Of a DNA stretch of 24,104 nt, positions 421 to 22,620 are shown one piece after another. The notes under the pieces are model-generated. The model did no database searches, was not told the origin of the DNA, and worked only from the letters and a program-made list of their open reading frames with translations. The translations under genes and the position numbers were made by a program. How positions within the stretch are numbered: position 1 is the stretch's first letter; every line of letters begins with the position of its first letter. Origin of the DNA: a virus; the IMG/VR virus record IMGVR_UViG_3300030329_003116, positions 1 to 24,104 of that record; one strand, written 5' to 3'.

Positions 421-1404
421 TCAATCCGTCTTCTTTGGTGTGCGGTCAACATATTTCAGATCGACATTGAATGGACGGATCGCTTTTTTCATCACATTTT
501 CTTGCCGCTCATAAAGCGATGTGTGTCTGCGCGTCAATGTTGGTCCCTCCCACCTCATTGAGAGCGTGACCATGCCGATGTAGTACGCCTGCACGTCGGG
601 CGTGATATGGACATCATCAGGCGATTCGTGGTCAGGACTGACTTGCAGACGATAGTCCCAGTTTGTGTCAAAGTGTCCCCCAATGTCGGCCAAATCGATG
701 CGCGTATTGACCGGAAAGTAATAGCCAATCACGAGGCGAAAATGTGGCTCGTGACTTTTTTGACTCCATGCGGTGTCGCGCACCGCGAAAAGGCAGAGCG
801 TCCCGCGCCACGGATACCATGTGGTCGTGACGCCGAGAAAATCGCCTTTGAAAAAATATGGCTCAAAAGTTCCTTCGAGCAGTTGAATAAAAAACTGCGG
901 AGCACCATCAATCTCTTTGTCAGCATTCAACATATACGGAACAATCGCTCGCGAGTCTTGTTCTTCCGTGAAAGCGGTCAACAATTTGGCGATGTGGGCG
1001 GGGTCGCGTTGAAGTTGGTCAACGATTTCTTCATATTCTATGACCGGCGCGTAGACGATGTTCTGTCGGCGCAGTTGCACATTCCTAACAGCGTCATGTT
1101 CAACTTTGTTTATGCGCGGCTCAAAAGCAATGAGGTTGTCATCGTCCACTGTGGTGGTGTCTTCGGCTTTGGAGACACCGAGGATGTAATCGACAGAGAC
1201 ACTGAGCGCGTTGGCAAGCAGTGGCAATTTTTCGCGAGACACTTTGCCGTCCCGTTTCCACTGTGAGACCGCTCGTTCACCGACATCGCACAGTCGTGCG
1301 AGTGTCCGGTTGTCCATATTTTTTTGTTCCATTGCGTGCTGAATTCGGTCACCGATTTCCAGTCCCCACGAATCATCATCATTTGGTTTTCGCTGTGGCC
1401 CCAT
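421..1404 (-). CDS. CI-type repressor: XRE HTH plus degenerate S24/LexA-like domain
   Basis: This is a 327-aa leftward protein, likely the lysogeny repressor. Residues 15-76 form an XRE-type helix-turn-helix ending in the typical VSVDYILG. Residues about 155-285 fit the S24/LexA fold: LLEGTFEPYFFKGD (175-188) aligns with the usual G-D-S-M-E/P-P...GD box, and YYIGMVTLSMRW matches the final strand. The nucleophilic Ser position is Thr179, no obvious catalytic Lys is present, and no Ala-Gly or Cys-Gly cleavage pair is seen in the linker, so self-cleavage looks unlikely (inference). I chose the ATG at 1404 over the one at 1449 because CAGGAGAG lies just upstream at good spacing. The gene faces the Cro-like gene across a control region and is followed by a terminator at 362-394. 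Confidence 0.82.
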   Translation of the reverse strand: MGPQRKPNDDDSWGLEIGDRIQHAMEQKNMDNRTLARLCDVGERAVSQWKRDGKVSREKLPLLANALSVSVDYILGVSKAEDTTTVDDDNLIAFEPRINKVEHDAVRNVQLRRQNIVYAPVIEYEEIVDQLQRDPAHIAKLLTAFTEEQDSRAIVPYMLNADKEIDGAPQFFIQLLEGTFEPYFFKGDFLGVTTTWYPWRGTLCLFAVRDTAWSQKSHEPHFRLVIGYYFPVNTRIDLADIGGHFDTNWDYRLQVSPDHESPDDVHITPDVQAYYIGMVTLSMRWEGPTLTRRHTSLYERQENVMKKAIRPFNVDLKYVDRTPKKTD

Positions 1405-1554
1405 TTCTCTCTCCTGTTGTTTGTGAAAACTAAAACTCTCGATTCTCACGTTCTATCTCCAAAACTTCTTTGCTGCGGATGCAAACCACTTGCATCGGTT
1501 GCTGCACTTGCTTTACCATCCGTGGACTCGAACTGTACAGAAGAGATACTTCTC
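1405..1554. promoter_or_regulatory. Divergent control region between repressor and Cro-like gene
   Basis: This 150-bp gap separates the two divergent regulators and should hold both early promoters and their operators. An exact 7-bp inverted repeat GATGCAA-accac-TTGCATC lies at 1478-1496. It overlaps a second pair, TTTGC/GCAAA, at about 1468-1484. Another inverted pair, AGAAG/CTTCT (1539-1553), sits just upstream of the Cro-like ATG. A weak rightward promoter could use TTGCAT (1490-1495) and TACCAT (1514-1519, 18-base spacer). I could not place a convincing leftward promoter. Operator assignments are inferred from position and symmetry. Confidence 0.55.
1478..1496. promoter_or_regulatory. Candidate operator, 19-bp inverted repeat
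   Basis: GATGCAA, five central bases and TTGCATC form a perfect dyad in the middle of the repressor/Cro intergenic region. The right arm overlaps the possible -35 of the rightward promoter, as expected for a repressor-blocked promoter. Binding is inferred. Confidence 0.5.
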
Positions 1555-5714: not shown

Positions 5715-6236
5715 ATGGCATTAACTGCGTTGCAGAAAAAGAAACTCCGAGAAAAGATGGTCGCGAAAATTCGTGACAAAGGATTTACGAAGGCGCGCCG
5801 GTCCTATCGAACTGGCAAAAAAATGGGTGAGGTCGGATTCAAGTCTGGCACTGCAGCCAATCTCGACCAACTTCTCGCCGAAGGCAAAATTACCCAGGCT
5901 CAGTACAACCGCAGGTCAGCCGCTCGCAAGTTTGCCAAAAAGCATCACAAGGCGATGCACACTAAAGGGACCGCGAAGAAGGTTTACGCCGCCGCTGCAA
6001 AAGAAGGCAAGCAGCATGAACACAAGGTCCAGAAGACCGGAACGTCCAATTTCAAACTCAGTTCGGACGTAAAGAAAACCGGATTCTCAAACGTCAGCGA
6101 AGTCAACAAATGGCAGCACGCCAAACAGGTGCAACTGAAAAACCTGGTGCGCGCTGGAAAGATGACTAAGTCACGGCATGATGCGCTGCGTGCTGCAGCC
6201 GCAAAACGTGCCAAACACCTGATTTCCAAGATGTAA
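5715..6236 (+). CDS. Highly basic Lys/Ala-rich protein between terminase genes
   Basis: A 173-aa protein with very many Lys, Arg and His residues and few acids, so strongly basic. It contains an internal duplication: residues 50-77 (LDQLLAEGKIT...KFAKKH) and 141-168 (LKNLVRAGKMT...KRAKH) align without gaps, sharing L-x3-G-K-[IM]-T and an Ala/Lys/Arg-rich helix. I do not recognise the family. Binding to DNA, perhaps during packaging or in the capsid, is inferred from charge and from its place between the two terminase genes. AGAGG 7-8 bases upstream of the ATG supports the start. The gene ends 7 bases before the large terminase start. Confidence 0.65.
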   Translation: MALTALQKKKLREKMVAKIRDKGFTKARRSYRTGKKMGEVGFKSGTAANLDQLLAEGKITQAQYNRRSAARKFAKKHHKAMHTKGTAKKVYAAAAKEGKQHEHKVQKTGTSNFKLSSDVKKTGFSNVSEVNKWQHAKQVQLKNLVRAGKMTKSRHDALRAAAAKRAKHLISKM

Positions 6237-6243
6237 CAACGGT

Positions 6244-7530
6244 TTGACGCAACTTCAAATCCCCTACCAATTTACGCCGCGCGAATACCAGATCCCAATC
6301 TTCGCGGCACTCGACAATGACTACCGGCGCGCCTGCCTGGTATGGCATCGGAGAGCGGGAAAGGATTTGACGTTGTGGAACCTGACGATCAAAAAAGCCC
6401 TGGAGCGTAAAGGCACCTACTTCTACTCGCTGCCAACATACAACCAGGCGAAGAAGGTCATCTGGTCCGGCATGAGCAATGAAGGGGTCCGGTTCTTGGA
6501 TCACCTGCCCAAGCAGATCGTGCGTAGCCTAAACAACACTGAGATGCGCGTCACCCTCGGCAACGGCAGCATCATTCAGTTGGTCGGCACCGACAACATC
6601 GACAGCATCGTCGGCACCAACCCTGTCGGGGTCGTGTTCTCAGAATACTCACTGCAGAACCCTAAAGCCTGGGAGCTGATCCGACCGATCCTGGCACTGA
6701 ACGATGGTTGGGCCGTGTTCAACTACACACCGCGTGGCAGAAACCACGGCTGGCGTTTGTTCACGATGGCCGAGAAGAACCCCGACTGGTACGTCCAGAA
6801 ACTCTCGGTCGAGGATACCGGCCTCCTGGACGATGACGCGATCCAGCGTGAGCGCGATGAGGGGATGCCGGAAGAACTCATCCAGAGCGAATATTTCTGC
6901 TCCTGGGACGCGGCACTGCCTGGTGCGTACTACCGCGACCAGATCGACAAGGCGCGTGCCATGAACCGCATTACGGTGGTTCCGCACCGCAGCGGTTTCC
7001 CGGTCTACACCGGCTGGGACATTGGCATCGGCGACAGTACCGCGATCATCTTTGCGCAGATTGTGGACCAGCAGATCCACATCATTGATTACGAACAGCA
7101 CGCAGGTGAAGCGTTGCCGTTCTATGTGAACCTGATCAAGGATAAGGAATACACCTACGGTGAGCACTTCGCGCCTCACGACATTTCGGCGCGTGACTTC
7201 ACCAGCGGCAAGACCCGCATTGAGATGGCGCGCGACTTAGGTCTCTTTTTCACGGTGGTCCGAAAAGCCCCGATTGATGACGGCATCAACTGCGTGCGTG
7301 CCATGTTCAACCGCTTTTTGTTTGACGAGGACCAGTGCGGTCATTTGATCGATTGCCTCGCGGCGTACCGTAAAGATTTTGACGAGAAGAACCAAACCTG
7401 GAAACCCAAACCAGTCCACGACTGGTCATCCCATGCCGCTGATGCGATGCGTACTTTCTGCATGGGCTGGGATGAGATGGGACACATTCAACAACACAGA
7501 CCCACTCGGGTCGTAAGAGCGATAGCGTAG
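6244..7530 (+). CDS. terL: Terminase large subunit
   Basis: A 428-aa DNA-packaging motor. The ATPase half has a degenerate Walker A, HRRAGKD (residues 35-41), and Walker B VGVVFSEY (128-135) with Glu134. The nuclease half has WDIGIGDSTA (Asp259, Asp264), PHD (311-313) and the terminal HDWSSHAADAMR (392-403, Asp393/Asp400), which together give the acidic metal-binding cluster of terminase nucleases. It translocates DNA into the prohead and cuts it at the packaging site. The first start codon in the frame is TTG at 6244; no ATG occurs before residue 77, after the Walker A motif. There is no good Shine-Dalgarno, so translation may be coupled to the basic-protein gene ending 7 bases upstream. Confidence 0.93.
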   Translation: MTQLQIPYQFTPREYQIPIFAALDNDYRRACLVWHRRAGKDLTLWNLTIKKALERKGTYFYSLPTYNQAKKVIWSGMSNEGVRFLDHLPKQIVRSLNNTEMRVTLGNGSIIQLVGTDNIDSIVGTNPVGVVFSEYSLQNPKAWELIRPILALNDGWAVFNYTPRGRNHGWRLFTMAEKNPDWYVQKLSVEDTGLLDDDAIQRERDEGMPEELIQSEYFCSWDAALPGAYYRDQIDKARAMNRITVVPHRSGFPVYTGWDIGIGDSTAIIFAQIVDQQIHIIDYEQHAGEALPFYVNLIKDKEYTYGEHFAPHDISARDFTSGKTRIEMARDLGLFFTVVRKAPIDDGINCVRAMFNRFLFDEDQCGHLIDCLAAYRKDFDEKNQTWKPKPVHDWSSHAADAMRTFCMGWDEMGHIQQHRPTRVVRAIA

Positions 7531-7539
7531 GAAAATATT

Positions 7540-8385
7540 ATGGCAGGTCCAGGCGGTGCAGATGGCGGCAACGATGGCGGCAGTGATGGCCCATGGGAAC
7601 GATGGCAGCAGACATTAGCCAGCAAAGCAAATCTCGCGAGACGAAAACAAGCAGACCCGAGTTATGCGCCGAGAAAACTTTTTGGCGGCCGGAAGAATAT
7701 CAAGATCAATGTCGGGAAAAAAACCAATGTCACGCAGGCTGAATTAGCGCAGTCGCTCTGGAATCAGAAATATCAGCAAAACTTCCTGACCGGTTTTAAT
7801 CCCCGCAAAGCAAGTGCTGCTGGCAAAAAAGTTGTCAGCCAGATCAATGATCTTTCCTCTGGTAAGGGTAAGTACAAAGGCAAGTCTGCTGCGTGGCGGC
7901 GCAATGAAGCGATCCGGGTTTTGACTCAGGCTGGTATCAATAACGCTGCCGGTCGCCTCAATGCAGATTTTGCGGGTGCTGATCGCCCCGCTCCAAGACC
8001 GAGAGGCGGCAGTAAAAAACCCAAAACCAGACAACCCAATACCTCTCCGGTGGGCGGCGGCCCCACTTCAAGTCCGGCAGTGAATACTCAGATTGATGCA
8101 ACCCAGGCAGCCCTTAACGCTGCGATAGCCGCGATCAATGCACAAGCCACCGGCTACAGCACTACGATGCAATCGTTTGCCGATTCTTTCTCAGGCGGCA
8201 CCGAAACCACCGGTCCGGTGTGGCCTGGTGCGCCGACTTGGGTAAAGACCTTTGATGATTACCGGAAGTGGAAACGGATGCAGTCGGCTGAAACTGGTTA
8301 TCTGTCAACAGTCAATACCGGTAGCACCGGACTGTCATCCGATGACTATGACGATAACGTCAGTGTGACCACCTTGACCGGCTAA
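7540..8385 (+). CDS. Low-complexity protein between terminase and portal, function unknown
   Basis: A 281-aa protein of unknown family. The N-terminus is Gly/Asp-rich, residues 26-63 and 85-125 are basic, residues 146-180 are a Pro/Gly/Ser linker, 185-203 is an Ala-rich helix, and the last 50 residues have a WVKTFDDYRKWKRM segment and a Thr/Ser/Asp tail. This patchy make-up suits a flexible virion or assembly protein. AGGA lies 10 bases before the ATG. The stop overlaps the portal start in a TAATG junction, implying translational coupling. Confidence 0.6.
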   Translation: MAGPGGADGGNDGGSDGPWERWQQTLASKANLARRKQADPSYAPRKLFGGRKNIKINVGKKTNVTQAELAQSLWNQKYQQNFLTGFNPRKASAAGKKVVSQINDLSSGKGKYKGKSAAWRRNEAIRVLTQAGINNAAGRLNADFAGADRPAPRPRGGSKKPKTRQPNTSPVGGGPTSSPAVNTQIDATQAALNAAIAAINAQATGYSTTMQSFADSFSGGTETTGPVWPGAPTWVKTFDDYRKWKRMQSAETGYLSTVNTGSTGLSSDDYDDNVSVTTLTG

Positions 8386-10064
8386 TGGCGACTTACGGTA
8401 AAAAGGGTAAGACACCAGACCCGCAGGCGATCATTCGCCGCTGCAAAGAACTCAAGAACAAACGCGAGAACTGGGACAACATTTGGGATGAGGTAGCGCA
8501 CTTTGTGCTGCCTACCAAAGCCGACTTTATCTCGCAGCGTGAGGGCGGCGCGAAACGCGACCAGGAGTTGTATGACTCGACCGCGATTACGTCGAACCAG
8601 ACTCTCGCGTCCGGTCTGCATGGTGCATTAACTGCGCCCAGCGGTCGCTGGTTCCATATCCGCTTTCGCGATGAAGTCCTCAACAATGACGATGCTGCGA
8701 TTGAGTGGCTGGAGGATTCTGTCGACCGCATTTATAAAGCGATTGACGAATCCAACTTCAATTCTGAGGTCAACGAGTTATACCTCGACCTTTGCTGTTT
8801 CGGAACGGCCGCGCTCCTGGTCGAGACTGACAAAGTCGACAACCAGGACAGTCTCAACTTTAGAACGGTGCATCTGTCTGAGATTGCGGTCGCCGAGAAC
8901 GTCGACGGTCATGTCGACACCATCTACCGCTCTTTGAAGTTTTCCGCGCGCCAGGCCAAGCAGTTATTCCCCAATGAGGATCTTGGCGAATCCATAGAGC
9001 GCGCGCTCCAGGACAAACCCGACAAAGAGTTTGAGTTTATCCATGCGGTCTACCCCCGCGAAGGCGTAGAACCGATGGAACTGGCACCTGGCAAAGAGCG
9101 ACCGTGGGCATCGTGCTGGGTGCAGGTCAAAGACAAAAAACTCGTCAGAGAAGACGGCTACTATGAGTGCCCCTGGATGGTGCCGAGGTGGTCGAAACTC
9201 TCGGGCGATGTTTACGGATTCAGCCCCGCAATGATGGCGCGAGCCGATATTCGCACTCTTAATGCAGCAAAACTGTTTGAGTTGCGAGCCTGGGAAAAGA
9301 CCATTGATCCTCCGACTTTGGCATCCTATAACGGCATTATCGGTGACCTGCGATTAGATCCAGGTGGGCTGACCTATGTGCGTGACATCAACGGCATCAA
9401 GCCGATGCAGAACGGCACCCAGTGGCAGGTCAGTCAGATCAAGTCCAGCGAACTGATCGTCAACATCCGGCGAGCATTCTTTAACGATCAACTGCAGTTG
9501 CACGAAGGTCCAAACATGACCGCGACTGAGGTGAGGGCGCGCATGGAACTCATGCAGCAGATCCTGGGTCCGGTCGTGGGTCGCCTGCAAAGCGAGTTCT
9601 TGAACCCGCTCTTACAGCGTGTGTTCATGGTCATGTTCCGTGCTGGTCTCTTTAAAGAACCTCCGCAATCGCTGATGGAAGGCGGCAGCAAGTTGGATGT
9701 CGAGTATGTGTCGCCTCTGGCGCGTGCTCAAAAGATGGAAGAAGTGTTTGCCGTGGAACGCTGGTTCGAGCAGTTGGGTCAGATGGCCCAGGTCGATCCT
9801 ACGGTCCTCGACATTGTCGACTTCTCCAAGATTGGCCGAATGCTCGCAAAACGCCTGGGCGTACCTGGTGAGGTGATGAAGTCGGATGAAGACATGGCAC
9901 GCCTTAACTTTATGCGAGAGCAGCAGGCGGCAGCGGAACAGCAAATGATGGCGCAGCAAACCGCTCTTGAGCAGGCAGGTCAGGCGGCGCAGGTCGCTGG
10001 TGCCATTGATGAGGCTGGTCAGGACAGTGTCGGTGGTGTCATTGCTGGTATGCAGCCGCAATGA
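8385..10064 (+). CDS. Portal (head-to-tail connector) protein, T7 gp8-like
   Basis: A 559-aa protein matching the podovirus head-tail connector family in length and features. It opens with RCKELKNKRENWDNIWDEVA, followed by QRDQELYDST-type segments and SNQTLASGLHGALTAPSGRWF (about 71-91). SFRTVHLSEIAVAENVDGHVD is characteristic of the wing region, and ANVRRAFFNDQLQLHEGPNMTATEVRAR-like residues (about 360-387) form the conserved C-terminal stem. The end is Gln/Ala-rich. Twelve copies should form the ring through which DNA enters and exits. It is coupled by TAATG to the gene before and by ATGA to the small gene after. Confidence 0.9.
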   Translation: MATYGKKGKTPDPQAIIRRCKELKNKRENWDNIWDEVAHFVLPTKADFISQREGGAKRDQELYDSTAITSNQTLASGLHGALTAPSGRWFHIRFRDEVLNNDDAAIEWLEDSVDRIYKAIDESNFNSEVNELYLDLCCFGTAALLVETDKVDNQDSLNFRTVHLSEIAVAENVDGHVDTIYRSLKFSARQAKQLFPNEDLGESIERALQDKPDKEFEFIHAVYPREGVEPMELAPGKERPWASCWVQVKDKKLVREDGYYECPWMVPRWSKLSGDVYGFSPAMMARADIRTLNAAKLFELRAWEKTIDPPTLASYNGIIGDLRLDPGGLTYVRDINGIKPMQNGTQWQVSQIKSSELIVNIRRAFFNDQLQLHEGPNMTATEVRARMELMQQILGPVVGRLQSEFLNPLLQRVFMVMFRAGLFKEPPQSLMEGGSKLDVEYVSPLARAQKMEEVFAVERWFEQLGQMAQVDPTVLDIVDFSKIGRMLAKRLGVPGEVMKSDEDMARLNFMREQQAAAEQQMMAQQTALEQAGQAAQVAGAIDEAGQDSVGGVIAGMQPQ

Positions 10065-11334: not shown

Positions 11335-12449
11335 ATGGCCTATACAGGCAATAAGTGGTATGCACAGCAGTACCAGGATGCCGTTCTGCAGTTGGCACAG
11401 CAGAAGGGATCGAAACTGCGTAACCTGGTCTTCACGAAGACCGCAAACTCCGAGAAGGTCAATTTCGAGCGACTCGGATCAACGGCGGCCGTTTCCAAAA
11501 CGACCCGCTACACGGATACGCCCAACGTGGAGATGACTCACTCAAGGCGTACCGTCACCCTGGCCGACTACCATTGGGCCACTATGCACGACTGGACAGA
11601 CGATGTCCGTATGCTGGTGGATCCCAAAGGTTCGTACACCAAGTCTGGTGCCTGGGCGATGGGGCGTGCAATCGATGATCTCATCATCGCTGCCGCTACT
11701 GGCAACGCTGTCGACGGTGACGGTTCTACTGTGGCACTGCCTGCTGGGCAGAAGATCACGGAGTCTGGAACCGCTGGCATGACTCTGGCAAAAATTCTTG
11801 AGGCCAAACGCATCTTGGATGCGAACGAGGTCGAGAATGAAGACCGTTGTTTCATCATCGGTTCGCGTCAGTTGGAAGACCTCTTGAACGTGACTGAAGT
11901 CAAGAGTGCCGATTACAACTCTGTAAAGGCACTGGTAGAAGGTCAGATTGACTCCTACCTTGGTTTCAAATTCGTTCGTTCAGAGCGTCTGGCAGTTGCG
12001 TCCAGCAAGCGTTCGTGCATTGCGTTCTCGAAACCTGGTCTCGGTCTTGCTATCGGCAAAGACATGATGACCAAGATCGATGAGCGGCCTGACAAGTCTT
12101 ATGGCTGGCAGGTTTACATGGCATTAAATGATTCTAGTGCCCTCCACTAGTAATAGTGGATGCAAAACTCCGTGAATTCAGAGAAACCCCTAACGTAAAG
12201 ACGAGGGCAACTTTGAGCGAAGCCGCGAAAGCGGAACGTGCAACGACTATCCTTTTTAGGAGTAGGGTCAAGCGACCCGAAGCGCGGAGAACCCCACTGG
12301 GGTTATGACATAGTCTGTTCTGCATTGAAAAATGCAGTAGCCGAAAGGCAGGGTGAGATTAGCGATCTCATTTGAACATTAAAGGGGCAATGCAAGCCAC
12401 GCGCATCGAAGATGAGCGTGTCGTCGAAGTGCAGGCTCACGAAGCCTAA
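11335..12449 (+). CDS. Major capsid protein, gene split by a group I intron (join 11335..12124, 12385..12449)
   Basis: Read without splicing, the frame stops at 12150 after eight intron codons (271 aa). Joining 11335-12124 to 12385-12449 restores the frame and gives 284 aa ending in WAMQATRIEDERVVEVQAHE plus Ala. The exon 2 residues look like the usual C-terminal strand of phage capsid proteins (A/G-x-R-x-E-x-x-x-V-V-E-V). The N-terminal part has blocks typical of podovirus coats: TRYTDTPNVEMTHSRRTVTL, then DDLIIAAATGNA, MTLAKILEAKRILDAN, and LGFKFVRSERL. It builds the icosahedral shell. GAGG 8 bases upstream of the ATG is a good ribosome site. The 3' splice could instead use G12387 (exon 2 from 12388), giving 283 aa with Ser in place of Trp-Ala; the frame holds either way. 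Confidence 0.85.
12125..12384 (+). ncRNA. Self-splicing group I intron (IA2-like, ORF-less) in the capsid gene
   Basis: A 260-nt intron with every core helix visible. P1: exon GGCAU (12120-12124) pairs with GUGCC (12137-12141), giving the U-G pair at the 5' splice site. P2: 12143-12149/12154-12160. P3: CUCCGU 12168-12173 with GCGGAG 12284-12289. P4: UCAGAG 12178-12183 with CUUUGA 12211-12216. P5: 12188-12191/12204-12207. P6/P6a: 12217-12241 with a GAAA loop. P7: GACUA 12245-12249 with UAGUC 12311-12315. P7.1: 12250-12261. P7.2: 12265-12278. P8: 12290-12304. P9, P9.1 and P9.2: 12320-12370. The presence of P7.1/P7.2 and the 3' half closely resemble the T4 td-type introns. There is no room for a homing endonuclease. 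The terminal G is most likely 12384. Confidence 0.92.
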
Positions 12450-13127: not shown

Positions 13128-14816
13128 ATGGCGCGCACTCATTCGATACAAACCAACTTTCTGAGCGGTGAGTTATCGCCGCTGCTGCATGGTCGAGTCG
13201 ATACCGAGCGTTATGGTGACGCGGTCGAAACGTGTGAAAACTTCATTATCAAGTTGCATGGTGGAGTCGAGCGCAGAGGCGGCACGCATTATGTTGCCGA
13301 GGTCAAAGACTCAAGTAAAAAGGTTCGGCTGATCCGGTTTGAGTTCAACCGTTCGCAGTCGTATGTCCTGGAATTCGGTGATCAGTACATTCGCTTCTTT
13401 ACGCAGAATGGACAGGTTACCTCAAGCGGGAGCGCGTATGAAATCACCTCGCCGTACACGGAGGCGCAACTCGACGAGATTCAAGTCGCGCAATCGGCCG
13501 ACACCATGTACATCGTTCACCCCGATGTCGCGCCGCGCAAACTGGTCAGAACTTCGAACACAAGTTGGGCGTTAACTGCGCCATCGTTTACGGCACCTAA
13601 GTGGGATGCGACCGACAAGTATCCGCGAGCGGTAGTTTTTCACCAGCAACGTCTTTGGTTTGGTGGCACCAACGCGAAACCGCAGACTATCTTCGGATCC
13701 AAGACTGACGATTTTGAAAATTTCACGGTCGGCACCAATGATGACGATGCCCTGGAATACGCGATTGCGTCTTATAAGGTCAACACGGTCGAATGGATGT
13801 CCTCGACTGAGGTGCTCCTGGTCGGCACCGCTGGCGCGGAGTTTAAGGTCTCAGGGGGTACGGCAGCACTGACCCCCAGCAATGTGCAAGTGACCAGGCA
13901 GACCTCCTACGGTGGTAAGAACGTCCAGCCCCGGCACATTGGTTACCAGACATTGTTTGTGCAGGGCACCGGTACAGCAGTTCGCTCTTATGAGTACAAC
14001 TGGGGCAATGACGTTTACGAATCAGAGGATGTGACGTTTCTCGCCGAGCATATCGGCAGCAAGGTCATCAAGGACATGGCCTACCAGATGGTGCCTGACA
14101 GCATCCTTTGGTGCGTGATGAATGACGGAACGCTGGCCGGTATGACCTACGAGAAAGGCCGCAAGATCGTCGGCTGGCACCGGCATACGACTGACGGCAC
14201 CTTTGAGTCGGTGTGTGCGATCCCGCAGTCCTCGGTCGACCAGGTGTGGGTCGCGGTCAAACGTACTATCAATGGTGCGACCAAACGCTACGTCGAATAC
14301 CTGGACCCTGATCTGCACGTTGACTCTGCTTTAACGTACAGCGGTGGTGCGATCACTGGGATCACTTCCGGCGGCTTATCGCACCTGGAAGGCAAAGAGG
14401 TCAGCATCTTAGGTAATGACGCTGTGGTGCCGAATGACACGGTCTCCAGCGGTAATGTGTCCTTTGGTGGTTTCTCGGTGACGGCTGCCGACATTGGTCT
14501 GCCCTTCACCAGCACGCTGAAAACTTTACCCATTGAAGGTGGCAACCCTGCAGGCACTGCCCAGGGTCGCCGGAAGCGGTGGAACGAAATTTATGTCCGT
14601 TTGCATGACTCCTTCTACCCCAAGATTAACGGCATCCGACCCCCGGTGAGGACACCCTCGACCGGCATGGGCAATGCAGAACCGAAAACAACAGGTGATG
14701 TCCGAATTCAGAATGAAGGTTACGACCTGGAAGGCCAGGTCACGATTACCCAGGATCTGCCTGGCCCGACTCACCTGCTTGCCATCTTCGGCACGCTCTC
14801 GGTACACGGAGGCTAG
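13128..14816 (+). CDS. Tail tube / nozzle protein (T7 gp12-type role)
   Basis: A 562-aa protein beginning with TNFLSGELSPLLHGRVDTER followed by Y, GDAVETCENFIIKLHGGVERRGG and then beta-rich repeats. This start is common to the large tail protein encoded after the tubular A gene in many podoviruses. AVVFHQQRLWFGGTNAKPQT (166-185) and SSTEVLLVGTAGAEFKVSGG (about 225-244) are further conserved-looking blocks, consistent with a beta-propeller. It would form the distal tail tube. It is shorter than T7 gp12 (794 aa) and I saw no clear enzyme motif. The ATG directly follows the preceding stop codon. Confidence 0.72.
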   Translation: MARTHSIQTNFLSGELSPLLHGRVDTERYGDAVETCENFIIKLHGGVERRGGTHYVAEVKDSSKKVRLIRFEFNRSQSYVLEFGDQYIRFFTQNGQVTSSGSAYEITSPYTEAQLDEIQVAQSADTMYIVHPDVAPRKLVRTSNTSWALTAPSFTAPKWDATDKYPRAVVFHQQRLWFGGTNAKPQTIFGSKTDDFENFTVGTNDDDALEYAIASYKVNTVEWMSSTEVLLVGTAGAEFKVSGGTAALTPSNVQVTRQTSYGGKNVQPRHIGYQTLFVQGTGTAVRSYEYNWGNDVYESEDVTFLAEHIGSKVIKDMAYQMVPDSILWCVMNDGTLAGMTYEKGRKIVGWHRHTTDGTFESVCAIPQSSVDQVWVAVKRTINGATKRYVEYLDPDLHVDSALTYSGGAITGITSGGLSHLEGKEVSILGNDAVVPNDTVSSGNVSFGGFSVTAADIGLPFTSTLKTLPIEGGNPAGTAQGRRKRWNEIYVRLHDSFYPKINGIRPPVRTPSTGMGNAEPKTTGDVRIQNEGYDLEGQVTITQDLPGPTHLLAIFGTLSVHGG

Positions 14817-14819
14817 GTA

Positions 14820-15692
14820 ATGTCTGTCGCAACTGCCGCCATGATTGGTCTCCAACTTTTCGGAGCAATCTCAGCAAAAAGCGCAGCCGATGATGCCGCC
14901 GAGCGTGCCATTGAGATCGGCACCGCTAATGCAGCGGATCTGCGTGAAATTTCGGCAAAAAATGCTGATGAGATTCGTCGCATTGCGGGTCTTAACGCTG
15001 GCGCGATTTTGTCGACGGCAAATCTGAATGCCGGTAGCGTTCTTAACATTGCAACGGCGAATTCTCTTGCGCATCTTGATTCGACCATTACGAATCTGGA
15101 CCTGGCAGCAACTGAAAATCTTGAACTGCTGCGAAGGCACGTTCTCCAGGAGCGTGCGCTTGCAGGTTCAATTCGTGCAGCGACCGGTGCCAGCGGTGTC
15201 AGGGTTGGTCAGGGATCCCCCCTAGAGGTTCTGGTTGATGCCGTCGAGCAGGGCTACGGTGAACGTCAGTACATGGCGAACTATGCGCGCAAGCGTCTGA
15301 CGATGATGGGCAAGGAAGGGATTACTCGAGCCAAACTGACCATGCTGGATGCTGAAGAAAGATCCCGCGTGCTTCTGGAGACTGCTGCGCTGCAGGCGCA
15401 CATTACGCGCGAAGAAGCCGAATCGTCAGCCACGATTATGCTGAACGATGCCGAGGCCAACGCAAAGTCAATGGAACGTGGTGGGGCAGCGTATGCCGCG
15501 AGTATGCGTGCCCAGGGCACTGCATCCTTGATCAGCGGTTTGATGGGTGCGACGAATACTTACCTGCAGTATGGGGGTGGAGGATTCTCCTCGGGTCCGA
15601 CTTTATCTCCGAGTGCGACTCATGGGTTTGGGGGTACTGGAATGTCTCTATCCATGCCGTACACCCACGCATCAGGGGTCGGGGTGGGTTAG
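14820..15692 (+). CDS. Internal virion / ejection protein, T7 gp14-like role
   Basis: A 290-aa protein starting with a short hydrophobic segment (MSVATAAMIGLQLFGAISAK), followed by a long Ala/Glu/Asn-rich helical region with repeated LNAG and TAN motifs (residues about 40-85). RAATGASGVRVGQGSPLEVL (114-133) is a recurrent block in podovirus gp14-like proteins. The C-terminus is Gly/Ser-rich. Such proteins leave the virion first and insert in the outer membrane to help form the DNA channel; that role is inferred. It follows the nozzle gene by 3 bases and is directly followed by the next ejection gene. Confidence 0.7.
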   Translation: MSVATAAMIGLQLFGAISAKSAADDAAERAIEIGTANAADLREISAKNADEIRRIAGLNAGAILSTANLNAGSVLNIATANSLAHLDSTITNLDLAATENLELLRRHVLQERALAGSIRAATGASGVRVGQGSPLEVLVDAVEQGYGERQYMANYARKRLTMMGKEGITRAKLTMLDAEERSRVLLETAALQAHITREEAESSATIMLNDAEANAKSMERGGAAYAASMRAQGTASLISGLMGATNTYLQYGGGGFSSGPTLSPSATHGFGGTGMSLSMPYTHASGVGVG

Positions 15693-17597
15693 ATGAAGAT
15701 TCCTAAATTTCAGTACAGCGTCAGCCCATCCATGTCGGGGGCTTATTCGCAGCCGGTAATGCGAGCAGCACCGACGATGCGGAGGGCCGAGGAATATGAC
15801 GAAAGTAAATTTCTGCGGAACCCTCGGGCCGGACAGCGCAATATGCAATTAGAAGTGCAAGCGGTTCTGGACCAGGCGAAGCCGATGACTGCGCTTGTGT
15901 CGGGCGCGCAACAGATCGCGGAGACTTTTGCAAAAGCCGATGCCGAGGAGCAACTGACCACCGCTAATCTTAATTTGCGCACTGAAGTCGAGCAGATGCT
16001 CGCAAACATGAAGGCAATGCCGATTGCGCGAGAGCAATCAGAGATTGATGGGTATACCGGTCAGGTCAATAGCACCTGGCAACCGGTGCATAAGACTTCT
16101 TACAAATCGTTTAATGCGTCCTTGATTCACGCACGCGACAGAATCGCGAAGGGCATGAGTCGAGTATCGCGGGATGCGTTCCTTAAAGGATCGGTCAATT
16201 ACATCGCGCAAGCCCAGGCCGAAGCCGCTTCAGTCAATCGCAAGCAGCACATCAAATATTTACAGGGCCGTGTTTACGATCAATTTGAGGCTGCACAAAC
16301 CGATGGTCAGATTGAGGAGATTAAAAACTCTCCCCATGCGCAACTTGCGTTTGACCCTATGGAATTGTCCAAAATGGCGCAGAAGCGGCATGAAGCCCTG
16401 GCAGTCGATTATTTTGCAACTGAAATCATTAAAGCCGATTCTGAGAATCAGTTAGAAATGGTTAGAGATCGTTTGGAAGGAACTGACGACTCCCAAGTAG
16501 GTGATGACGGTGTCTATATTCAGACACCAGACCAAGTGCGAGCCTATGCTCATCTGGAGCATCTGGACGGTGAAGCCAAGATGGAACTCCTGGGCAAGAT
16601 TGAACAAAGGATGGAGGCGTTTGAAAAAGCAGATGAGGAGAGGCTAGAGAATAACTTTAAAGATTTAGTCGATCAGATTTACGCGAACAACGGTGACCCG
16701 GAATTGTTCAATTCTGAGGTCTACGCGCAAAAGATCGCTGATGATGACATTGCCGAGGATGCCCTCAAAAAATTGGAGGATCATCAGAAGCGTGCGATCA
16801 AAATGAGCGGCACCGTAATCGAATCAGATCCAGAACTCGAAAATAAAATTCTTGGCGATATTTCTAACGACGACTACAGCGTCGAGAATCTGCAGGCAAT
16901 GCCCCTGGAGCAGGGTTTCAAGCAGAGAATGATTGAGGAGCGCAGAAAGTATGACCGCACCAGCATAATCTGGTGGGACAAAAGCAATCCAGACGGTATC
17001 AAGGGTCATCTGGCGAAAGAGATCCTGGAGGATGCCTTCATTCCAAGTCCTCAGTTTCTGGAATTCATGCCAGGCCAGGCGCGTGCAAACATGATGAAGC
17101 GCATGAACGCGGCCATGATTGAACTGATTGAATACGCGGATGAATTGCAGCAATCAGATATTCCAAACAAAGAGGTGCTCGACAAAATCTATGACAGAGC
17201 GAAAGAGTTAGCCGATAAGGAACTTAATCGCACCACCGTTAGCAACAACGTCAAAGGAGTGGGGAATACACACCCGCAGGCGTTTGGTGGCACTGAAGAT
17301 CAATGGGCAGACTTTACAAATTGGCAAGTTGGAAATCTCAAGTTAGGTCCAGATGGCAATAAAAAGCCGACTTATGATTTTGTAGAAAGCATGAAGCCTG
17401 GGCCGCAGCGGGATGCTCTGGCAACCAAGTTTGCCGAGTTTGGCTGGGAGTTTAAGGCTGGCTTTATTGGTGAACGTCAATCACCGGAAGAACTGCAAGA
17501 GGAGATCGAAGCGGCCGGGGGTGCTGATAACTGGATTCTGAAAGAAATGAAAAAAGTGCTGCACGACTACAAAAGTTGGTTGGGGTTAGATGAATGA
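15693..17597 (+). CDS. Internal virion / ejection protein, T7 gp15-like position
   Basis: A 634-aa, almost wholly alpha-helical protein rich in Glu, Lys and Gln with few hydrophobic runs. It lies second in the ejection-protein block, as gp15 does in T7. The N-terminus (about 1-45) is Ser/Arg/Pro-rich; the middle has repeated helical hairpins (for example AVDYFATEIIKADSENQLEM and MELLGKIEQRMEAFEKADEE). I see no enzyme motif. A role in the periplasmic DNA-ejection channel is inferred from position and composition. The start ATG abuts the preceding stop, and the stop overlaps the next gene by 4 bases (ATGA). Confidence 0.62.
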   Translation: MKIPKFQYSVSPSMSGAYSQPVMRAAPTMRRAEEYDESKFLRNPRAGQRNMQLEVQAVLDQAKPMTALVSGAQQIAETFAKADAEEQLTTANLNLRTEVEQMLANMKAMPIAREQSEIDGYTGQVNSTWQPVHKTSYKSFNASLIHARDRIAKGMSRVSRDAFLKGSVNYIAQAQAEAASVNRKQHIKYLQGRVYDQFEAAQTDGQIEEIKNSPHAQLAFDPMELSKMAQKRHEALAVDYFATEIIKADSENQLEMVRDRLEGTDDSQVGDDGVYIQTPDQVRAYAHLEHLDGEAKMELLGKIEQRMEAFEKADEERLENNFKDLVDQIYANNGDPELFNSEVYAQKIADDDIAEDALKKLEDHQKRAIKMSGTVIESDPELENKILGDISNDDYSVENLQAMPLEQGFKQRMIEERRKYDRTSIIWWDKSNPDGIKGHLAKEILEDAFIPSPQFLEFMPGQARANMMKRMNAAMIELIEYADELQQSDIPNKEVLDKIYDRAKELADKELNRTTVSNNVKGVGNTHPQAFGGTEDQWADFTNWQVGNLKLGPDGNKKPTYDFVESMKPGPQRDALATKFAEFGWEFKAGFIGERQSPEELQEEIEAAGGADNWILKEMKKVLHDYKSWLGLDE

Positions 17598-19585
17598 CAG
17601 ATCAAGATCAAAGTCGAATTGATCAATTCACTGCGACCCAGCAGGCAGAAAATCAGTTAATGATCGACTACCTGGATCAGGTAAATAAAGAAGAATTTGA
17701 GATCACTGAACAGGAACTGTTCAACGATCAAGGCTGGATCACCGCGAGTCGGGTACTGCATGAAGCCAACACCGGCAATCAGTTTGATGGCACTGACGAA
17801 GACGCGGCGCGTTACGGACTAGAGGAGATGGGAAAGATCAACTACTCCTGGTTTAACGTGGATATGCCCTGGACCGAGGAAGACTCAAAAGGTCTGGTCG
17901 GTTACATGATGGACATAGAAAACAAGTTCACCGACCGTCAGAAACTTGCGCTGATGCTGCTTTACGATACCTATGAAGCAAAGGATGGTTTTTTCGGTTC
18001 TGGTGCTGGGTGGTGGCGTGCCACAAAAAACATGGCGCAAGACCCTTCAAATTACTTTGGTGTCGGCGCGTTAGCATCATTGGGCCTAAAGTTCTTAGGG
18101 CGTGAAACGGCAAAGAGCGGTTTCAAACTTTTCCTTGAGAACTCTGCAAATTCAATATTGTCTAAGACAGGTATGGGAATTGCGGTTACTGAAGGTGCTG
18201 CATATGGTGCCAGTGATTCCATCATGCGCCAGGAATTTGAAGCCGACCTGCAAGATGAGCATTTTCCGATTTCTGAATATCTGAGTGCGGAAACATTTTT
18301 TGGGGCTGGGGCTGGCGCACTTTTACCGGGAACAATGGTTGGCGCTCCGACCGCAGTCAAAACTGCGATCACAAAATGGAACGATAGAACAGGGCCGCTG
18401 CCTAAAGTACCGGAAGATAGACCGGACCTGGTAATCGTCGAGGAACCCATTAAAGATAAGCGACCACGCACGATGACCGAGACCATCCTGGAGGATGTCG
18501 GTGATGCAACGCTTACTGAAAAGCGGGTGGTCGTTGATGAAGGAAAGGTCGACGTTGATGCCGAAAACTTTAACTTTCCAGAACTTCCCAAGACGATCCC
18601 CGATGACGATCCGCGAGTATCCATAGATACGCAGACAAAGCATAAAAAATCGGTCGGGGAGCAGACAGAGTTTTTCAATCCTACGTTCGGGCACCAGGGT
18701 GTGCCGCAGTACAAAGCGGCACGCAAAAAAATTCACGACCGCATTATTTTTAACACGGTCAACGTCAAGGGTAGTCGGGTTGCCGAGGGTGAAAAACCGA
18801 TTGTCGTGTTTATGGGTGGAGGTGGAGGATCTGGCAAAACTACTGTTCAAAAAGCAGCGATCAAAAGTGGAAGGATGCCAGACCGCAGTTACGTCACTAT
18901 CAATCCAGATGATGTGAAAAAGGGTTTACCCGACTATAAGAAAGTGCGGCGCGCAGGGGATTACAGGGCTGCAGAAATTGTGCATGAAGAATCCAGCGAT
19001 GTTGCAGATATGGCACTAGCCCAAGCAGTCCAGGAGAATAGAAACATCGTGATCGACAAGACGATGGCAAACCCAGGCAAGAATCTCGCTTTAATGGAAC
19101 TGCTAAGACAGAAAGGCTACGAAATTCACTTCTTAGGGGTCACCATTGATCCAGCAACAGCCGCAAACAGAAACCTGGGCCGGTTCTATAACTCCGGTCG
19201 ACTGCCTCACCTGCAGGCAATGGTGCGGTCTCACAAGGCGTTTAATGCAAACGCGATACAGTACCTGGAGGCTGCCGATGTTGGATCACTGATGGACAAC
19301 ACAGGAAACTCAGTCACATTGGTCGCAGAAAAAACACCGGAGGGATCGATCAGCGTATCTGATGCTGATCTCTTAGATATAATCCTTGGTAGAGGTCAAT
19401 TAGATGAAAACTCAAAAACCATCCGACAACTCCGAGAGTCGGGAGTCGACGCCAGTGCCAGCGTTTCCAGAGGAGATCTGGAAAGAAGCCCTGGAGGAAA
19501 CCCGCAGACAGGAGAAGAAGGACAAGGGGCCGCCGGTCCTCTGGCCGATGAACGACTGATTGAACCAGCAGCGGGGGCATTCTGA
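17594..19585 (+). CDS. Ejection-type protein with zeta-toxin-like kinase domain
   Basis: A 663-aa protein of two parts. Residues 1-260 resemble an ejection protein: acidic N-terminus, then glycine-rich hydrophobic stretches (about 154-168 and 233-250) likely to enter membrane. Residues about 370-575 form a zeta-toxin/PezT-type P-loop kinase: Walker A GGGGGSGKT (408-416), INPDDVKKGLPDY (436-448), Glu465 in EIVHEESSD, NIVIDKTMANP (484-494) and a late ANRNLGRF segment. Known zeta toxins phosphorylate UDP-N-acetylglucosamine and block wall synthesis; this substrate is unproven here. No epsilon-type antitoxin gene is next to it. A 60-residue low-complexity C-terminus overlaps a small ORF in another frame. 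The ATG overlaps the gp15-position stop, and TGATG joins it to the next gene. Confidence 0.75.
   Translation: MTDQDQSRIDQFTATQQAENQLMIDYLDQVNKEEFEITEQELFNDQGWITASRVLHEANTGNQFDGTDEDAARYGLEEMGKINYSWFNVDMPWTEEDSKGLVGYMMDIENKFTDRQKLALMLLYDTYEAKDGFFGSGAGWWRATKNMAQDPSNYFGVGALASLGLKFLGRETAKSGFKLFLENSANSILSKTGMGIAVTEGAAYGASDSIMRQEFEADLQDEHFPISEYLSAETFFGAGAGALLPGTMVGAPTAVKTAITKWNDRTGPLPKVPEDRPDLVIVEEPIKDKRPRTMTETILEDVGDATLTEKRVVVDEGKVDVDAENFNFPELPKTIPDDDPRVSIDTQTKHKKSVGEQTEFFNPTFGHQGVPQYKAARKKIHDRIIFNTVNVKGSRVAEGEKPIVVFMGGGGGSGKTTVQKAAIKSGRMPDRSYVTINPDDVKKGLPDYKKVRRAGDYRAAEIVHEESSDVADMALAQAVQENRNIVIDKTMANPGKNLALMELLRQKGYEIHFLGVTIDPATAANRNLGRFYNSGRLPHLQAMVRSHKAFNANAIQYLEAADVGSLMDNTGNSVTLVAEKTPEGSISVSDADLLDIILGRGQLDENSKTIRQLRESGVDASASVSRGDLERSPGGNPQTGEEGQGAAGPLADERLIEPAAGAF
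19404..19559 (+). CDS. Possible small overlapping gene (51 aa)
   Basis: This ORF lies in the +1 frame inside the 3' end of the zeta-kinase gene. Its ATG has GAGG nine bases upstream. The product is charged and compact (PAFPEEIWKEALEETRRQEK, then KDKGPPVLWPMND). Its codons look at least as phage-like as those of the Gly/Ala/Ser-rich frame it overlaps. No family is recognised. It might be a real nested gene, or mark a former frameshift in the larger gene's tail. Confidence 0.4.
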   Translation: MKTQKPSDNSESRESTPVPAFPEEIWKEALEETRRQEKKDKGPPVLWPMND

Positions 19586-22500
19586 TGGCAGTTAAGCCCC
19601 CAACAGAACTGGATCCGCAACTGGAACCAACTCCCACCGAGACCCCGGCACCTGCCGGGGTTTCTGCTTCTGGAGAGGAAGAAATTGAGGAGATCCTGGT
19701 CGCTGGTGTCACGGGCAGAATAGGTGCGCGCGCGGCACGACCGTTTATGACTCTTTTCAATACTGCTGGTGCATCACGCCAAAGGAACCTTCCCGAGAGT
19801 TTAAGAATCGACACCAAGCGTGGCGAAAAAGAATACTTCTCCGAGGATCAGCCTGCAGCCGACAAGATTGAACCTGGCGGCGGTCCTGACAGAGTTAGGG
19901 CTGACAATGAGACTCTGAGAACTCCAGAGGAGATTGAAGACAAGGTCGATGAATTGGATTCTGTCCTGGCAGGCGCGGATTACCAGGACTTTGATCTGAG
20001 CGAATCCTGGCAGATCAATCCAGAGAACTTTACCTCTCCGCAAGATTTTGAAAAAGCGCAGATGGCGATTGCCAAACGCTATCGCATGGACATTGACCGG
20101 CAGCGTCGAGGAATCGTTACTGAAGAAGAAACAATGAAGTTGGCAAGGGCGTTGTCCGATGATCCTAAGTTCGTTGCTGAGTTCATTCAGAACCCTCCAG
20201 GAGGCGCAGCCAACGCAGAGCAGATTCAGGCAGCCAGAATCCTGGTTCTAAAGTCTGCTGAGAATCTAAAGCGATCAGCAGTCAATTACCGGCGCAAAGC
20301 AGTCGGCGACGATGTCCAGGTCTCCGAGTTAGAGTTTTTGCGGAACTGGAATATCCATAAAGAACTCTTGGCAAGGTTCATGGGAGTGCGCGCAGAAGCA
20401 GGTCGCGCGCTGCGCGCAACTTCGGGCCAGAGTATCGGTCCAATTAAGGATCTGCCGCGCGCCAGGGTTGAAGAACTGCTCGCATCCTACGGATCCGGGA
20501 TGGATCCAGGACGCATGGCCGATGCCATTATCGCTAATCCCAATCTGTTATCTCTAAATAAGACTGTCAACGCACAGTCTTCCGGTATCAGCAAGTGGGG
20601 TGCAGCGTTCGCCGAGAACATGGTCGGTTCAATTCTGAGCGGGTTGTCGACGTTTGGTGTGAACCCTATCGGTAACGCTTATATGATGGGTCGCCACATG
20701 GCGAACACCGCGCTGGCTGCGCGCCTCGGGAAGTGGACCTATTCGGGCCAGAGTGAAGTAGAGGTCGGAGAGGCGATGGCATTTTTCTATGGTGCCATGA
20801 GTAACTTCCGCAGAGCATCGCAAGCCTTTACCGTGTCATTGCGCACCGCTGAACCCTATGGAGGATCAGCCAAATTTGAAGGCGCGCGCGATAAAGGATT
20901 GGATGCAAGGGCACTAGGATTTAATCCTAAGTCCATTCACGGTGCTGCTCTAAATGTTTGGGGCTTGTTAGCGCGCGCTCCGATGGAAAGAATCCTCGGG
21001 CCGACCGATGCTCTCTTTAAGGTTCTGAATGAGAGCGGGATGTGGTCTCAGTTGTCGATGCGCCAGGCTATAAAGGAGCAAAGACTTAACGGCTGGACTG
21101 ACGCTGAGACCCAGGTCCGGTTCCGGGAACTCCTGGAAAATCCTGACGATGAAACCCTGGGTCGGATGAAAGACCTCGGAGAGGAAAACACCTTTACCAA
21201 TCCGTTAGGCCCGAGTGGAAAAAAATGGCAGGCAGTGGTGCAAGATCGGGCTATTGGGCGATTGTTGGTGCCGGTTTTTCGTACTCCATTGCAGATCACT
21301 AAAGTCGGTTTCCTGGAGGACACTCCTCTCGGCTTTTTATCGAAAGTTACTCTTAGCAGACTCTATCCGAAACCCGAGCCAGGTAAGTCTGCGCTGACAC
21401 CCAGGCAGATTGAAGATATGCAGATGGCGCAGTCAAAAATGGTGGTAGGCACCATGACCACTGCTGCGCTTGTTAGCCTGGCATTTAATGGTTACCTGAC
21501 TGGATCTGGTCCTCGGGAACCTGGAGCGCGTGAAGCAGTAAAGGGGGTTATCCCGCCAAGATCTTTTCCGGTCGCTTTTGATGACGCAGGTAATCCGACT
21601 GAGTGGAGAACCTTTGATCGTCTGGAACCGTTAAGCCTGCACTTTGGCTTGATCGCGGATTTTGTGGATGCAGTGAAGATCAGTCAGTTTGTCGACCTGG
21701 ATCAATCCCAAGTCGACATGATCTTAAACCTGGGGGCTGCTTTAACGCTTGCCATGTACGAAAACACAATCAACAAAACGTACATGAGGGGTGTAAATGA
21801 GGCTATAGATGCCATCAGCGATCCCGACCGCTATTACGAAAGGTGGGCGGCCACGTTCTTGAACGCGCAAATTCCGTTAGCGGGTGCTCGCCGCGATCTA
21901 CGAAAGATGATGGACCCAGGGCTGCGCGAGGCAGAAGGCATCCTGGAGCGGCTGCAGAACTCTATGCCGTACTTCTCAAAGAACCTTCCACACTTGGTCG
22001 GTCGGCATGGGGAATATATGGACTTTGAGCACTTGCTTAATCTTCCTTTCAAAAAATTTGAGGTTAGTGAGGAACCGATAGACATCGAATATGCGAGGTT
22101 ATTTGAAAACACTCGAATAGCCCCGGTGACGTTTCCCACAGAAAGAATAGGCGGCGTAAAACTCGACGCGGATCTGACGCATGATGTTAAGAAGATTTCT
22201 CGGGATGGTATTCGAGTCCTTTGGTCGGATGACGGTTTCATGGAACCGGTTGATGTATCAACACCGCTCTATGACGAAAACGCACATTGGCGTGATCGCA
22301 TCCAGCCGCAGGCAGGCGATCATTATCTCACGTTCAAGGGTGCCGTCGAAAAGTTTATGCAGTCCGAGGAGTATGACGCTCCTGGAATGACGGACTTTCG
22401 TCGCGTCGAGATGATTCGGAAAATCCAAACCACTTTTGACGAGGCTGCCAGAAAATTCCTAAAAGCCAACAATTCTCGACTTGCTCAAGAAATCATGCTG

Positions 22501-22620
22501 AAGGAGCAGAACTCAATGCGCCGCAAGTTTGGTCGAGAACGTGCTGATCAGGAAATGCGAAATCAAGGCGTTGAACCAATAACACCCAAAAGCGAACAAC
22601 CGTTATTCAATTTTGACTAG
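19585..22620 (+). CDS. Large internal virion / ejection protein, T7 gp16-like position
   Basis: A 1011-aa protein, the largest in the window, placed last in the ejection block and just before the fibre gene, as gp16 is in T7. The N-terminus is Pro/Thr/Glu-rich. Residues about 330-380 (AAFAENMVGSILSGLSTFGV and on) and 619-640 (MVVGTMTTAALVSLAFNGYL) are hydrophobic and probably membrane-active. The stretch NTFTNPLG...AIGRLLVPVFRTPLQITKVG (about 532-575) is a pattern I associate with large phage ejection/polyvalent proteins. No lytic transglycosylase motif is evident at the N-terminus, unlike T7 gp16. It likely spans the inner membrane during DNA entry. It starts in a TGATG overlap with the kinase gene. 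Confidence 0.68.
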   Translation: MAVKPPTELDPQLEPTPTETPAPAGVSASGEEEIEEILVAGVTGRIGARAARPFMTLFNTAGASRQRNLPESLRIDTKRGEKEYFSEDQPAADKIEPGGGPDRVRADNETLRTPEEIEDKVDELDSVLAGADYQDFDLSESWQINPENFTSPQDFEKAQMAIAKRYRMDIDRQRRGIVTEEETMKLARALSDDPKFVAEFIQNPPGGAANAEQIQAARILVLKSAENLKRSAVNYRRKAVGDDVQVSELEFLRNWNIHKELLARFMGVRAEAGRALRATSGQSIGPIKDLPRARVEELLASYGSGMDPGRMADAIIANPNLLSLNKTVNAQSSGISKWGAAFAENMVGSILSGLSTFGVNPIGNAYMMGRHMANTALAARLGKWTYSGQSEVEVGEAMAFFYGAMSNFRRASQAFTVSLRTAEPYGGSAKFEGARDKGLDARALGFNPKSIHGAALNVWGLLARAPMERILGPTDALFKVLNESGMWSQLSMRQAIKEQRLNGWTDAETQVRFRELLENPDDETLGRMKDLGEENTFTNPLGPSGKKWQAVVQDRAIGRLLVPVFRTPLQITKVGFLEDTPLGFLSKVTLSRLYPKPEPGKSALTPRQIEDMQMAQSKMVVGTMTTAALVSLAFNGYLTGSGPREPGAREAVKGVIPPRSFPVAFDDAGNPTEWRTFDRLEPLSLHFGLIADFVDAVKISQFVDLDQSQVDMILNLGAALTLAMYENTINKTYMRGVNEAIDAISDPDRYYERWAATFLNAQIPLAGARRDLRKMMDPGLREAEGILERLQNSMPYFSKNLPHLVGRHGEYMDFEHLLNLPFKKFEVSEEPIDIEYARLFENTRIAPVTFPTERIGGVKLDADLTHDVKKISRDGIRVLWSDDGFMEPVDVSTPLYDENAHWRDRIQPQAGDHYLTFKGAVEKFMQSEEYDAPGMTDFRRVEMIRKIQTTFDEAARKFLKANNSRLAQEIMLKEQNSMRRKFGRERADQEMRNQGVEPITPKSEQPLFNFD

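Follow-up and report, generated by a model that had tools for sequence, protein, structure and literature searches.

A predicted zeta-fold kinase carried as exchangeable cargo on the N-terminal half of a split T7-type ejection protein

The DNA analyzed here (the window, meaning the whole stretch of 24,104 nucleotides (nt)) is a 24-kb fragment of an uncultured virus, IMG/VR record IMGVR_UViG_3300030329_003116, in which genes were called as open reading frames (ORFs). The gene of interest is an uninterrupted ORF at positions 17594–19585 (plus strand) encoding a protein of 663 amino acids (aa), in which a zeta-toxin-like kinase domain follows a module related to phage ejection proteins. This gene is part of an operon consisting of the genes for tail tubular proteins A and B, a gp14-like and a gp15-like protein, the kinase fusion and a gp16-like protein, with a tail fiber gene coming next in the relatives; the order gp11-gp12-gp14-gp15-gp16 ahead of the tail fiber is that of T7-type phages. 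The neighboring genes, all on the plus strand, code for the gp12-like tail tubular protein B (13128–14816; phrog_376, 9.6e-189), the gp14-like internal virion protein of 290 aa (14820–15692; phrog_418, 4.1e-7), a gp15-like ejection protein of 634 aa assigned by its position and size (15693–17597), and a protein of 1011 aa that corresponds to the C-terminal half of gp16 (19585–22620; phrog_6651, 2.9e-25), whose start overlaps the stop codon of the fusion gene by 1 nt. Both neighbors of the fusion gene are thus overlapping virion genes. An earlier inspection of the window (the sequence-only reading) had reported a zeta-like kinase inside an internal-virion block, and the open frame, the match to the Pfam family PF06414 and the gp14-, gp15-, and gp16-like neighbors confirm that this observation was correct.

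The same kinase fusion is present in five other IMG/VR contigs (L002–L006) at about 50% identity, and the possibility that it is an assembly chimera was rejected on this basis. A chance read-through fusion was also rejected, as the identity of about 50% has been retained and the kinase core is better conserved: between the window and L002, the zeta core is 69% identical, compared with 43% for the N-terminal module and 38% for gp15. The TerL and gp12 proteins of the window are nearest to those of aquatic podoviruses (42–47%). Two short-pattern scans of genome contigs for a host or prophage gave no match, a result that depends upon the patterns used and does not establish absence.

The kinase domain comprises residues 360–605 (18671–19408), within which the Zeta_toxin family PF06414 is matched by residues 396–554 (18779–19255) with an E value of 4.8e-33 and a score of 114.7 bits, well over the family threshold of 22.3. 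An AlphaFold2 model of this domain, based upon 15 phage sequences, has a predicted local distance difference test score (pLDDT) of 86.7 and a predicted template modeling score of 0.83. The 12 best Foldseek matches of this model are all to PezT, AvrRxo1, and zeta, at about 1e-9, with the next match at 2e-5. In structural alignments by VIA-align, AvrRxo1 obtained the highest Z score (20.2; 239 aa, 3.2 Å), followed by zeta (18.9; 219 aa, 3.1 Å), PezT (17.7), and then a polynucleotide kinase (13.7). The domain contains a Walker A motif, GGGGGSGKT (G408–T416; 18815–18841), which includes K415 and is conserved in the phage relatives. It is followed by an NPDD motif (as INPDD; 18902–18913), where D439 aligns with the catalytic base of zeta (D67) and PezT (D66) (PMC3062530), whose equivalent in AvrRxo1 is D193 (PMC5491322). 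Further along are an HEESS motif (residues 464–468; 18983–18997), which is common to AvrRxo1 and absent from zeta and PezT, the segment D488-K489-T490 (19055–19063), and the arginines R530 and R536 (19181–19201). The zeta residues K46, D67, E116, T118, R158, and R171 correspond to K415, D439, D488, T490, R530, and R536, all of which are invariant in the 15 phage rows. The earlier description of a zeta-family kinase with a Walker A motif, a catalytic Asp and a DKT region is therefore borne out, and the structure prediction that it had proposed as a check places zeta, PezT, and AvrRxo1 as the top folds with the catalytic Asp in place. Based upon these sequence and model comparisons, the domain is very likely a phosphotransferase, its activity being a prediction. 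A C-terminal tail (residues 606–663; 19409–19582) follows, at the place where L002–L006 carry a further ART-like domain.

The N-terminal part of the protein (residues 1–260; 17594–18373) is homologous, by BLASTP and hidden Markov model comparisons, to the N-terminus of gp47 of the Pseudomonas phage LUZ100 and to that of the gp16 proteins in L038–L049. Residues 42–216 match residues 59–212 of LUZ100 gp47, whose annotation is internal virion protein D with similarity to T7 gp16 (5e-20, 34% over 175 aa). The C-terminal half of LUZ100 gp47 is in turn matched by the next ORF, 19585–22620 (22%, 4e-6), which also has matches among pelagiphage, roseophage, and cyanophage internal virion proteins. Since the N-terminal module and the next ORF match two parts of LUZ100 gp47, the two genes of the window are, judging by homology, a split gp16 with the kinase appended to its N-terminal part. 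A profile scan found uncut gp16 proteins of about 1200–1280 aa, with no kinase, in the LUZ100-like phages L038–L045, L047, and L048; in L046 and L049, the gene is truncated at a contig end. The split also occurs with no cargo, as in L008 (291 aa + 979 aa) and L080 (256 + 950 aa). The attachment of the kinase to a genuine ejection-protein module, as had been proposed from the letters of the window, is upheld by the LUZ100 match and by the retention of the slot in relatives. However, what the gene encodes is one half, the N-terminal one, of a split gp16, and not an additional fourth ejection protein beside gp14, gp15, and gp16 of T7, as that proposal would have it. No transglycosylase was found in the split gp16 proteins of the window, and the N-terminal module showed no significant match to solved structures. 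A hydropathy scan detected a Gly/Ala-rich, weakly hydrophobic segment at the end of this module (residues 234–259; 18293–18370), and a similar segment is found in the same place in L002, L008, and L067; where a relative has cargo, it is just ahead of it. The segment is possibly a membrane-inserting element. Between this module and the kinase is a linker (residues 261–359; 18374–18670) with an NFNFPEL motif, which recurs ahead of zeta domains in other ejection-block proteins.

A scan with the C-terminal half of gp16 identified 41 loci, in which the gene between the gp15-like and gp16C-like genes consists of a conserved N-terminal module, of which there are two types, followed by a C-terminus that varies. 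The slot in the relatives holds no cargo (proteins of 256–291 aa), zeta, zeta plus ART, ART alone, or domains that could not be identified, where several of the assignments rest on matches below curated cut-offs. Zeta is the cargo in the window and in L014. L002–L006 share the architecture of the window with the further ART-like domain at the C-terminus (PF18760, ART-PolyVal; 5.4e-6 in L002, under the cut-off). L067 has an ART-PolyVal match above the cut-off (2.2e-7), those of L060, L064, L071, and L057 are below it, and the cargo of L065 has a GNAT-like match (0.0014, under the cut-off). The clearest evidence for exchange comes from L066, L067, L068, and L072, which are 92–96% identical in gp15, 92–96% in the N-terminal module and 96–98% in gp16C. 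Their DNA is 88–90% identical up to position 683–772 of the slot gene and identity returns, at 91–93%, from the last 14–20 nt of this gene onward, with no alignable DNA across the cargo cassette between these flanks. The only distant kinship among their cargos is between those of L067 and L068 (24%, 2.5e-6). These four loci constitute a natural cassette-swap series, with four different C-terminal cargos on near-identical phages. The kinase is accordingly seen, from these sequence comparisons, as one of several exchangeable cargos in a fixed slot, a feature that the sequence-only reading had missed.

Two other slot proteins merit mention. In L063 (4316–7591, plus strand), a 1091-aa slot protein with a type-1 N-terminal module has, by eye, a C-terminal HExxH-like segment and no Pfam match; its cargo is a possible metallopeptidase or polyvalent candidate. 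In the cultured pelagiphage HTVC028P (L091), the unannotated gene for gp34 (5944–8808, minus strand; 954 aa) lies between gp15-like and gp16-like genes; it has no Pfam match and one region of it resembles, by eye, polyvalent-protein sequence.

The absence of an adjacent antitoxin gene, noted earlier, agrees with the layout of the locus, because the neighboring genes overlap the ORF 17594–19585 and leave no room for one. A search for the epsilon antitoxin family gave no match, but its controls were equally silent and it is uninformative by itself. In 19 of 24 loci, the next virion gene starts at most 10 base pairs from the slot stop codon or overlaps it. A small ORF follows the slot gene in L055, L056, and L057, but it is alike in all three whatever the cargo, and hence it is not a cargo-specific immunity gene. 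By comparison, a small ORF is found downstream of 89% of MuF toxin genes (PMC5576092).

Zeta domains were also sought in other viral contigs, where at least 280 contigs were found to contain them, of which the best 80 were analyzed. In L113–L116, L118, L122, and L123, zeta is present in an equivalent slot, in proteins of 739–1133 aa, and the order of genes is gp12, a protein of 140–173 aa, a protein of about 700 aa, the zeta protein, a protein of about 810–827 aa and a fiber-like gene. Comparisons by hhalign detected no homology between gp16C and the downstream protein of L113, L116, L118, L122, and L123, and no match between the type 1 and type 2 N-terminal modules, and these slots are therefore positional equivalents only. 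Among 43 non-redundant zeta ORFs, eight also match MuF, six portal families, three a prohead protease, two ddrB-ParB, one NUDIX, and one ART. Because zeta ORFs are fused to MuF, portal, protease and ejection-block proteins, the zeta fold is, to judge from these sequences, a repeated companion of virion proteins, which Iyer et al. had remarked upon in the case of MuF (PMC5512222). A tree of 72 zeta domains placed all eight ejection-block rows in a single group of 22 rows (100/99), alongside large ORFs, many of which range in length from 1290 to over 4800 aa; in the remaining group, of 50 rows, no row was detected within a T7-like ejection block. The contigs L117, L119, L121, L124–L130, and L155 contain very large ORFs, about 1290 to >4800 aa long, in which a zeta domain of the ejection type is internal, and that of L126 also carries ddrB-ParB. 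Tandem zeta domains, in one protein or in adjacent ORFs, are present in L140 and L156 (residues 633–866 and 894–1124 in L156).

The explanation that we favor, with a probability of roughly two in three, is that an active zeta-fold kinase is carried as cargo by the N-terminal half of a split gp16, and that this protein is packaged, is ejected, and phosphorylates a nucleotide metabolite of the host. It builds upon the observed gene anatomy, homology, fold, catalytic residues and cassette exchange. The fusion protein would be made late and packaged in the internal core together with the gp14-like, gp15-like, and gp16C-like proteins, and it would be ejected at the start of infection. In T7, gp14, gp15, and gp16 exit the virion first, and of the residues of gp16, 1–228 remain in the periplasmic tunnel, 243–410 make up a membrane region and 411–1118 a cytoplasmic hub (PMC8954989). 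The N-terminal module, ending in its hydrophobic segment, may likewise engage the ejection channel and the inner membrane, and the kinase, as it follows this segment, would then be on the cytoplasmic side and reach the host cytoplasm, where ATP and the acceptor are present. There it could phosphorylate a small nucleotide-type metabolite, either an adenine nucleotide resembling nicotinamide adenine dinucleotide (NAD) or a UDP-sugar, ahead of phage gene expression, and thereby dampen a response of the host or slow its growth or wall synthesis. The slot itself would be a general cargo site, with other enzymes occupying it in the relatives.

Several points weigh against this explanation. Packaging, ejection, topology, substrate, and benefit are predicted here from sequence and models, and because the model of the N-terminal module is weak (pLDDT of 62), its membrane topology is guesswork. 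The kinase fusion was found in no cultured phage and in no INPHARED phage record. T7 gp16 must partly unfold for passage through the portal channel, and the kinase domain would therefore have to refold after passage. Additionally, a toxic kinase that is made late, active, and without immunity could hurt the producing cell.

With regard to the substrate, the sequence-only reading had suggested an action on UDP-sugar pools. In zeta, UDP-N-acetylglucosamine (UDP-GlcNAc) is contacted by E100, R120, and T128 (PMC3062530), but the equivalents of these residues, mapped by profile alignment from sequence only, are not conserved in the 15 phage relatives. As this is so and AvrRxo1 is the closest solved fold, the UDP-sugar suggestion is unproven. 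AvrRxo1 retains the ATP-binding and not the UDP-GlcNAc-binding residues, and it phosphorylates NAD (PMC5087710). From the alignments and models, UDP-GlcNAc is thus not supported as the acceptor, and NAD or another nucleotide is plausibly at least as likely as a UDP-sugar. A specific form of this idea, that an AvrRxo1-like NAD 3′-kinase removes or disguises NAD early in infection, e.g., against NAD-based defenses, is a possibility that we hold tentatively. AvrRxo1 is the top structural score, the profile match spans its whole kinase domain (positions 7–233 of 239), the NPD..K and HESS motifs are shared by the phage domain and AvrRxo1 and lacking in both zeta and PezT, and one relative, L002, adds an ART-like, NAD-using domain. 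However, zeta scores just 1.3 Z below AvrRxo1, and the identity to AvrRxo1 is 18–20%. It is more doubtful that, with the same delivery, the kinase is a classical zeta enzyme, which would block MurA by phosphorylating UDP-GlcNAc and weaken the wall as the phage enters, as was put forward for MuF-zeta fusions (Iyer et al., 2017; PMC5512222). The Pfam match, the fold similarity to zeta, and the retained P-loop and catalytic Asp are consistent with this proposal, but the contact residues for UDP-GlcNAc are not, and the fold and the NPD and HEESS motifs are nearer to those of AvrRxo1, which has no significant UDP-GlcNAc activity (PMC5087710).

A role in the producing cell late in infection, by wall weakening before lysis or by phage exclusion, with no injection, is unlikely. 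The late operon position and the lack of an antitoxin would suit it, and growing cells can be lysed by zeta toxins (PMC5923241); however, attachment to the gp16 N-terminal module and translational overlap with gp16C make little sense for a free late enzyme, and relatives carry ART-type cargo in the same slot. It is very unlikely that the P-loop domain serves the ejection machine as a structural or energy-coupling component and has no effector role, for although it sits in an ejection protein and is predicted to bind ATP, it retains all of the phosphotransfer residues and is dispensable for ejection, since L008 and L080 lack it and other relatives have unrelated domains in its place.

The delivery of an injected kinase cargo, as favored here, has parallels in a number of known systems. 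Like the phage polyvalent proteins, which are virion-linked multidomain proteins with effectors such as ART, GNAT, ParB, and a zeta-toxin-like kinase (Iyer et al., 2017; PMC5512222), the window protein combines a virion-linked protein with an effector domain, its kinase being encoded in an ejection gene; further, the phage-type polyvalent domain LPD38 matches the gp16-like gp40 of pelagiphage HTVC204P. However, that work ties zeta to MuF and conjugative elements and the words gp16 and ejection are absent from it, and the vehicle of the window protein is a split T7-type gp16. At an E value of 0.01, Pfam gave no match to an LPD or other signature polyvalent domain in the window protein. The MuF polymorphic toxins of temperate phages (PMC5576092) similarly have a conserved virion N-terminus and a variable C-terminal toxin-like domain, and an exchangeable C-terminal domain on a conserved N-terminus is also what is seen in the relatives of the slot gene; in contrast to these toxins, the window protein has no MuF match and no cargo-linked small immunity ORF, and it is located in a podovirus ejection block. 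T7 gp16 and LUZ100 gp47 have the same place in the operon, with homology to both halves in the case of gp47, but only the window version is split in two genes with a kinase at the split, and it has no detected transglycosylase. AvrRxo1 of Xanthomonas is likewise the kinase of an injected effector; it differs in its delivery by type III secretion and its chaperone-antitoxin partner. The zeta and PezT toxins share with the phage domain the fold, P-loop, catalytic Asp, Thr, and two Arg, and differ from it in their UDP-GlcNAc contacts, in having an antitoxin gene and in not being fused to a virion protein. T4 Alt is also an enzyme that is packaged and injected with the genome (PMC5512222), although it is an ART enzyme and a head protein outside the ejection channel.

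Earlier work (PMC5512222; PMC9503650) has predicted that zeta and ART domains are fused to MuF, portal, and other head proteins and that they are injected, and virion-fused zeta is for this reason an already known kind. In the literature searched, we found no paper pairing a zeta toxin with an internal virion protein and none on ejection-protein effectors; as far as searched, what is new is a T7-type ejection vehicle whose cassettes are cleanly exchanged. These results suggest that the machinery for DNA injection also serves to deliver interchangeable effectors. The broader proposal, that the T7-type ejectosomes of an entire lineage of podoviruses are programmable injectors, in which a fixed gp16 N-terminal module brings exchangeable C-terminal enzymes without immunity into the host cytoplasm, and that the zeta cargo is a virion-delivered NAD 3′-kinase acting before phage gene expression, is rather improbable. 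Should the explanation favored here hold, the best-understood DNA-injection machine, gp14-gp15-gp16, would double as a delivery system for interchangeable payloads, similar in this respect to MuF toxins or secretion effectors yet acting at the first moment of infection, and the slot would be a place to mine for anti-defense enzymes. The cassette swaps among L066, L067, L068, and L072 would make this long-suspected idea testable, and the cultured HTVC028P, with the same split layout, is a possible experimental model.

Two other features of the window were also observed. A divergent C1-like repressor gene (421–1449, minus strand; HTH_3, 1.5e-5) is located beside a primase/helicase-like early region, which points to a temperate podovirus; a gene for an integrase was not found within the fragment. 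An Rfam group I intron (RF00028, 83.9 bits; 12090–12337, plus strand) lies close to the 3′ end of the gene for the major capsid protein, whose ORF is at 11335–12150. No such intron was found in L003, L014, L113, and L116, and the exon downstream of it encodes ...VVEVQAHEA, as does the intron-less capsid gene of L003.

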